From Pseudomonas sp. BMS12 (GTDB lineage: Bacteria > Pseudomonadota > Gammaproteobacteria > Pseudomonadales > Pseudomonadaceae), in contig NZ_LSOF01000015.1 of NCBI RefSeq assembly GCF_001592875.1, positions 1 to 64,000 of the forward strand: a stretch of 64,000 bases of DNA, given 5' to 3'. Both the position numbers and the translations under genes were made by a program. The notes under the pieces were generated by a model. The model saw nothing but the letters and a program-made list of their open reading frames with translations. It searched no databases and had not been told where the DNA came from. Below are positions 29,261-30,251 of this stretch, piece after piece. Within the stretch, counting starts at the first letter, position 1; every line of letters starts with the position of its first letter.

Positions 29261-29294
29261 ATGCCGAAGGCGCCACATGGGCGCCTTCGGGCAT
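29261..29294. terminator. Long hairpin after pxpC
   Basis: Near-perfect 14-bp stem (ATGCCGAAGGCGCC at 29261-29274 with 29280-29294, one bulged G) and 5-base loop. It lies between convergent pxpC and the repeat-protein gene, seven bases after the pxpC stop. There is no T run, so termination is likely but not certain. Confidence 0.6.
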
Positions 29295-29347: not shown

Positions 29348-29878
29348 TTAACCGATCTGGCTGCTGCCGGTGCGATCGAAGCCGTCTTCGGCGACGTTGT
29401 TGCCGGTGCGATCGAAGCCGTCTTCGGCGACGTTGCTGCCGGTGCGATCGAAGCCGTCTTCGGCGACGTTGTTGCCGGTGCGATCGAAACCGTCTTCGGC
29501 GACGTTGTTGCCAGTGCGATCGAAACCGTCTTCAGCGACGTTGTTGCTGGTGCGATCGAAGCCATCTTCGGCGACGTTGTTGCTGGTGCGGTCGAAGCCG
29601 TCTTCGGCGACGTTATTGCTGGTGCGATCGAAGCCATCTTCGGCAACGTTGTTGCCAGTGCGATCGAAACCGTCTTCGGCGACGTTGTTGCCAGTGCGAT
29701 CGAAACCGTCTTCGGCAACGTTGCTGCCGGTGCGGTCGAAGCCATCTTCGACGATGTAGCTGCCGGTACGGTCAAAGCCGTCTTCGGCGAGGGTGCGATC
29801 AAAACCGTCCTCGGCCAGGGTCAGGCCGCTGAGGGTGAAGGTAGAAACGAACAGGGCGGTGAGAATTTGCTTTTTCAT
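29348..29878 (-). CDS. Secreted protein of 13 EDGFDRT tandem repeats
   Basis: 176 aa. A signal peptide (MKKQILTALFVSTFTLSGLTL, cut near LTLA) is followed directly by 13 copies of EDGFDRT; from the second copy on, units are 12 residues long with consensus AEDGFDRTGNNV (variants GSNV, SNNV, GSYI). There is no other domain; the protein ends GSSQIG. The repeats are rich in Asp, Gly and Asn, so calcium or polymer binding is conceivable, but no known motif was recognised. A GGAG ribosome site lies 9 bases upstream. The gene stands alone, between convergent pxpC and a divergent binding-protein gene. Similar short Asp/Gly/Arg repeat proteins occur in pseudomonads without known function. Confidence 0.75.
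   Translation of the reverse strand: MKKQILTALFVSTFTLSGLTLAEDGFDRTLAEDGFDRTGSYIVEDGFDRTGSNVAEDGFDRTGNNVAEDGFDRTGNNVAEDGFDRTSNNVAEDGFDRTSNNVAEDGFDRTSNNVAEDGFDRTGNNVAEDGFDRTGNNVAEDGFDRTGSNVAEDGFDRTGNNVAEDGFDRTGSSQIG
29369..29815 (-). repeat. Coding 36-bp tandem repeat array
   Basis: Contiguous 36-bp units (the first is 27 bp) encoding the EDGFDRT protein. Units differ mainly at silent or Gly/Ser positions (for example gcgatcgaagccgtcttc against gcgatcgaaaccgtcttc). There are no unique spacers, so it is a coding minisatellite that could change copy number by slippage or recombination. Confidence 0.9.
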
Positions 29879-30251
29879 TTGAGTGGCTCCGTTTGGGGCT
29901 GGAAGTTGACTACGGGGCCTATGTTACTCAGGTAAATTCGATATAAAACTTGAGGGTGGCAATGTTAGTAATCGATGCCGTTGATAGTTTGCTTGCGCCC
30001 AGTATCCGTGGGGCTTTCCAGGATTTTATCTGTCTCGTTTGCTCGCCACTGGAACGCTTGGTGCTCGTTGTTAATTATCGATAAATTCGATGCGTATCGG
30101 CTGTATCTATCCTGGCGATGCGCGAGCCTGATGCAGCCAATGGCGCTAAGCTGAAAGACAGAGGGCGTCGAGCATGATGGTTGCGCTAGCGCATCGGCCT
30201 TTGTGCAGGACGTAGAAGAAAAAGGACCCATTGCTGAAGAGTCCGGTCGAG
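29879..30251. other. AT-richer intergenic region between divergent genes
   Basis: About 370 bases, clearly less GC-rich than the surroundings, between the repeat-protein gene and the LIV-type binding protein. It should carry both promoters. A 10-bp palindrome TTATCGATAA lies at 30075-30084 and AT-rich tracts at 29933-29950. No gene, tRNA or terminator was recognised. Confidence 0.5.

Follow-up and report, generated by a model that had tools for sequence, protein, structure and literature searches.

An exported EDGFDRT tandem-repeat protein of Pseudomonas sp. BMS12 belongs to a genus-wide family with a MexT-type operator and is probably a PA4881-like envelope stress protein

In a stretch of 64,000 nucleotides from Pseudomonas sp. 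BMS12 (contig NZ_LSOF01000015.1, positions 1 to 64,000, here called the window), one short gene codes for little more than a signal peptide and a run of EDGFDRT repeats, which raises the questions of whether it is made as a protein, what switches it on and what its product could do for the cell. The gene lies between convergent pxpABC 5-oxoprolinase genes on one side and a divergent Peripla_BP_6 binding-protein gene on the other (Table 1). A preliminary description of the locus had reported a signal peptide followed by 13 EDGFDRT copies, mostly in 12-residue units, and this was confirmed by the ORF, by motif count and by Tandem Repeats Finder: the 13 copies are spaced by 9 residues once and then by 12 residues 11 times, and the translation ends in a short GSSQIG tail. 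Tandem Repeats Finder returned a period of 36 bp, with 11.8 copies and 90% matches over positions 29365-29790 (score 656), by far the top score among the five rows it reported for the window.

Table 1. Features read in and around the repeat-protein gene, in window coordinates.
Feature	Position	Strand	Basis
Repeat-protein gene, 176 aa, ATG start	29348..29878	-	ORF list and sequence
Signal peptide MKKQILTALFVSTFTLSGLTLA, presumed to be cleaved before EDGFDRT	29813..29878	-	Read by eye
13 EDGFDRT copies, 12-residue units (36 bp)	29369..29812	-	Tandem Repeats Finder and motif count
Ribosome-binding site CGGAG	29887..29891	-	Sequence; GGAG kept in relatives
-10-like TAACAT	29921..29926	-	Comparison of family upstream regions
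-35-like GTTTTA, 17 bp spacer to -10	29944..29949	-	By eye; weak consensus match only
LysR/MexT-type nod box ATCAACGGCATCGATTACTAACAT, 83 bp before ATG	29962..29985	-	Strict-form search, matrix, pxpC-locus alignment
Second nod-box-like site ATCGAATTTATCGATAATTAACAA, one mismatch	30068..30091	-	One-mismatch search, pxpC-locus alignment
Hairpin between convergent pxpC and repeat gene, possible shared terminator	29262..29294		By eye

The 36-bp units of the preliminary description stand, but "nearly identical" was slightly too strong a term for them. The 13 heptads are written in 8 distinct DNA versions that all encode the same residues (pN 0.000, pS 0.52), and selection therefore acts on the EDGFDRT protein; over the whole 36-bp units of the gene, pN/pS was 0.16. 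One antisense frame that shares the wobble positions also gave a low ratio, 0.09 versus 0.08 in the sense frame when the same units were used, and it is the minus strand that carries the signal peptide, the GGAG and the promoter-like elements all together. Judged by its sequence, the repeat gene encodes a genuine protein.

A homologue search, which the preliminary description had recommended, found protein matches in 215 of the 298 genus genomes sampled (E 1e-3). Since low complexity can inflate the matches of a repeat family, a set of 61 distinct sequences, the window's included, was assembled with a filter that required a signal-peptide-like start and at least 3 units; the start shared by the 61 is thus a selection criterion of the script and not an independent observation, and the filter drops some family genes, such as those in L052 and L059. 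In the wider family set, repeat periods of 13 or 12 residues predominate. Family genes occupy several different conserved loci whose neighbours vary from one locus to the next, and functional operon partners were rejected because the neighbours differ. The pxpC gene is common to the window and eight other loci (L011, L035 and L040-L045), at seven of which the binding-protein gene also falls within the stretch read; two of them, L011 and L042, code for identical proteins, and neighbouring copies of the repeat gene are present at L011, L041 and L044. Copy number among pxpC-locus genes ranges from 3 to 23 units, which bears out the expected variation between relatives, as a comparison of species and not of the strains for which it had been proposed. 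The window gene is, by these matches, a member of a genus-wide family and not an orphan.

Repeat units also seem to pass between paralogous loci. In the one genome examined for this (G224), the repeat genes of two separate loci (L080 and L081) have 220 bp of repeats in common at 92%, against about 72-76% between either gene and the nearest of its other relatives, which points to unit exchange between paralogues. Two to several repeat genes stand clustered side by side at L042/L053, L041, L044 and in genome G023 (L059). An origin from mobile elements was rejected: a search of phage records gave no match at E 0.01, which likewise leaves the earlier idea of a phage or bacteriocin interaction without support, the PHROG matches were weak and were set aside, and the seven plasmid matches were all below 60% identity, with none in Pseudomonas.

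What the family genes have in common beyond their repeats is their upstream region, where ATC-N9-GAT-N4-AnCAT is followed by a TAACAT-like -10 and then by GGAG across loci. Of the 61 sequences, 59 have GGAG no more than 20 bp from the ATG, 39 have TANNNT in the expected range and 18 have a T-rich -35 at 15-19 bp, and in the nine sequences of the pxpC locus ATC-N9-GAT-N4-A-x-CAT is among the invariant upstream columns. ATC-N9-GAT is a T-N11-A LysR box. In the 4.5-Mb genome of the window, the form ATCRNNNNNRTYGATNNNNANYAT matches at two places, upstream of the window gene and of a paralogue, against 0 for the control; with one mismatch allowed there are 28 matches against 2, including the site at 30068-30091, which could serve either the window gene or the divergent binding-protein gene. 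Of these one-mismatch sites, 21 lie inside an ORF by a rough ORF choice that also put both exact sites in spurious ORFs. A stretch like 30068-30091 is present in L035 and partly in L040.

A tighter form of the operator was found in 212 of the 298 genus genomes, with every control column at 0, and this genus-wide search did not match the window's own genome. By hand tally, 267 of the 298 have a protein match, the operator or both. At all 30 operator loci examined a signal-peptide-like repeat ORF begins shortly after the box, 29 of these being one locus beside an AsmA gene and so not independent. A matrix was consequently judged on other loci: trained on the 29 AsmA-locus loci only (10 distinct sites), it gave a median of 13.7 in 56 sequences from elsewhere and -5.6 in 425 control genes (p 8e-31), with the best match 78-91 bp ahead of the start codon in 51 of the 56. 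The window gene scored 17.7, the 99th percentile of the controls being 9.9, and 24 of the 56, among them the paralogue L002 (8.9), fell below that percentile. The three top controls (27.5, 14.7 and 14.7) proved to be family genes overlooked by the filter, so that the controls were slightly contaminated, to the disadvantage of the MexT-type reading; the next control scored 12.4. The box was first noticed in family upstream regions that included the window's, which makes its presence there partly circular, though not its rarity elsewhere. Beyond the genus, the operator was present in 6 of 293 order-level genomes, five of them of the same genus, and no repeat ORF stands behind the site in the sixth (L166). 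The best remaining non-family control (L062 10517-12157, 12.4) has its box 120 bp upstream, and in L068 and L069 a protein similar to its product is encoded behind the repeat genes.

MexT is a regulator of redox and toxic-chemical stress that controls MexEF-OprN efflux in Pseudomonas, and its consensus is ATCA-N5-GTCGAT-N4-ACYAT. The window's genome contains a MexT orthologue (L121) that matches a MexT probe at 86% and matches the solved MexT structure 6l33 at E 5e-111, and the gene adjoining it scores above the NCBIfam MexE cut-off. Under the matrix derived from repeat genes, the promoter of this mexE scored 15.4 at 77 bp before the ATG, a value exceeded by only one of the 425 controls, itself a family gene. 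The mexE site also fits ATYA-N7-YGAT, the form published for MexT boxes (PMC11432991). From these promoter comparisons we infer that MexT or a close MexT-like LysR regulator would control the window gene, and this regulatory half of the mechanism proposed below appears well supported. Which protein owns the box is less clear: because two MexT-like paralogues (L122 and L123, 66-69% identity) are present in the same genome, another regulator may do so, and since MexT-type matches (1e-100) occur in 296 of the 298 genus genomes whether the operator is present or not, the co-occurrence of the two does not discriminate.

Control by MexT has been described for proteins of a similar kind. One study describes PA4881 of P. 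aeruginosa as a tandem-repeat protein that MexT controls (PMC3557286), and it stands at the top of a mexT mutant table, with a log2 change of -6.5, PA4623 showing -5.8 (PMC12607905). Its drop in parS and parR mutants (-10.68 and -9.13) is the largest visible in another data set (PMC3848899). PA2206, a further LysR protein, binds the PA4881 promoter and raises PA4881 7.7-fold, and more than one LysR regulator may thus act on PA4881-type promoters; in the same study, a disk assay found that H2O2 sensitivity was not raised in a PA4881 mutant (PMC3557286). Among the repeat genes considered here, MexT dependence is published, in the literature searched, for PA4881 and PA4623 only (PMC12607905).

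Another genome, G592, has a MexT that is identical to 6l33 at all but one of 204 residues, and 27 sites within two mismatches of the MexT consensus, against 2 in the control. Two of its two-mismatch sites precede exported-type repeat proteins, at 75 and 83 bp before the ATG. One of these, L198 (129 aa), is flanked by MFS and ShlB genes; the other, L201 (113 aa), has a Ferritin gene as its neighbour and AsmA farther out. From these neighbours and the gene order of P. aeruginosa, we take L198 to be PA4623 and L201 to be PA4881. At the family locus with the tight operator the order is repeat gene, AsmA, Ferritin, which differs from that at L201, and the two therefore have a shared neighbourhood and not strict synteny. 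The presumed counterparts resemble the window protein in their signal-peptide-like start, in repeated A-x-[DNS]-G-[SA]-x-[RQ] cores and in the MexT-like site 75-83 bp before the ATG; unlike it, they have longer, more degenerate (e.g. LADNGSERTVDRLHRDMS) and fewer units, weaker boxes by the repeat-gene matrix and other loci. The L201 site scored only 3.3, with 32 of 425 controls higher, and at L198 the matrix prefers a different site, at 180 bp. No ORF at the G592 loci passed a screen for two or more strict core matches, because L198 and L201 carry one each, and for the same reason homology of the pair with the window protein is weak.

A MexT-type nod box lies at a set distance from the ATG of the window gene, and the encoded protein has a signal peptide, called by eye, followed by tandem units built on a Gly-x-[DE]-Arg core, as in a PA4881-like protein; the gene stands at a different locus from the PA4881 counterpart, and the likeness is confined to the signal peptide, the short core and the promoter layout. 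The zero-mismatch consensus site in G592 stands in front of two genes, one ArsR-type and one MFS, presumably PA4354/PA4355. That pair is listed in the published MexT table (PMC12607905). At L180 of the same genome, a site one mismatch from the consensus lies before a small lipoprotein-like gene.

The preliminary description regarded such a protein as having no function on record, and it missed the genus-wide family, the MexT-type operator and a probable relative, PA4881, published as MexT-controlled (PMC3557286). PA4881 barely makes this kind of protein known. It heads the published PAO1 MexT table (PMC12607905), and the literature searched gives no function for it. What is new, as far as our searches show, is the family with its several loci, the operator common to them and the perfectly regular EDGFDRT variant, and no paper on EDGFDRT or AEGGSDR was found within the literature collection searched. 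PA4881 can now be compared with a set of genes spread over the genus that have an operator and a short conserved core in common and vary naturally in copy number, features which make the function directly testable.

The protein itself is small, acidic and, by its signal peptide, probably exported, in agreement with the preliminary description. Its net charge is -26, family members ranging up to +2, and mature chains of the family contain 15.5% Gly and 10.2% Arg and are nearly devoid of Cys, Trp, Met, His and Lys, with Cys absent in 60 of 61 sequences. AlphaFold, supplied with 17 aligned sequences, gave a mean pLDDT of 43.5 and no repeat structure, too weak a model for structure comparison; the window protein is thus predicted to be disordered, or else to have a fold invisible to AlphaFold from so shallow an alignment. 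The best candidate for a solved homologue was a chance match (E 0.91).

We consider it probable that the window gene encodes a MexT-type-regulated, exported and disordered envelope stress protein similar to PA4881 and PA4623. The family would consist of small Sec-exported tandem-repeat proteins, each alone under its own promoter. Redox or electrophile stress would activate MexT or a close MexT-like LysR regulator, which would switch the gene on through the nod box centred near -65, and the 154-residue mature chain would be exported, presumably to the periplasm, and stay largely unfolded. There its many identical A-[ED]-[DG]-G-x-D-R units might act jointly in the cell envelope, by multivalent binding or buffering, a guess at the molecular action that we put forward tentatively. 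The evidence behind this reading comprises the protein family, its conservation as protein and the shared operator at a fixed position, together with the MexT orthologue, the mexE box fitting the same matrix and the predicted disorder. In a bolder version, which is a long shot, MexT-switched unfolded chains encoded at many unlinked loci would be exported to soak up reactive electrophiles as an envelope sponge, inert or sacrificial; the Arg that occurs about once in each unit would be a dicarbonyl target, and the dose would be tuned by copy number and by unit exchange between loci. The matrix role suggested earlier found no support.

Other readings of the same chain are possible in principle. 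Hydrophilins are recognised by Gly above 6% and a hydrophilicity index above 1, and a Gly-rich, very hydrophilic unfolded chain of this type could shield the envelope during stress by bulk, without specific binding. The mature chain of the window protein qualifies on both counts (Gly 15%, index 1.12) and is predicted to be disordered, but only 8 of the 61 sequences qualify on both when the mature part is cut at residue 22 throughout, 53 of the 61 falling short in hydrophilicity, and the invariance of EDGFDRT at the amino-acid level over 13 copies goes beyond what bulk composition requires; we therefore regard a hydrophilin-like protectant as a minor possibility.

Clearly less probable is a copper/zinc-responsive periplasmic protein like PtrA, in which the N-terminal AEGG[AS]DR motif would have been multiplied. 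The NCBIfam model of the PtrA N-terminus (NF041599) matches 2 of 10 relatives above its curated cut-off of 31 bits (L050 with 43.5, L031 with 37.9), but the window protein reaches only 18.1 bits. Three small genes of the window's own genome (G000:C43; L003, L004 and L005) do exceed the cut-off, and by eye they lie in a copper-resistance-type region, with multicopper-oxidase, response-regulator and efflux-type genes nearby. Their products have a signal peptide followed immediately by AEGG[AS]DR at the start of the mature chain, as a single motif and not a tandem array. PtrA is described as being under CopRS/CzcRS control, with a different operator, whereas the operator of the window gene is of MexT type; the best CopR/CzcR-type site upstream has 4 mismatches to the published consensus (PMC11195947), and no copper gene is among the annotated neighbours.

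Ion binding, calcium included, had been suggested in the preliminary description and is very improbable. The net charge of -26 and the Gly/Asp-rich tandem units of an exported protein recall RTX repeats, but the 12-residue unit lacks the RTX nonapeptide, no RTX or other calcium-repeat model of Pfam matched even at E 1, and the relatives range up to a net charge of +2. A selfish or meaningless expansion of the repeats that rides on a promoter, which the wide range of copy number at the pxpC locus and the apparent movement of units between loci of G224 could suggest, is just as improbable in view of the pN of 0 across the heptads and because reading frame, ribosome-binding site and operator are all conserved at several loci. 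In the window's genome, a lipoprotein-like gene lies near the MexT-like L123.
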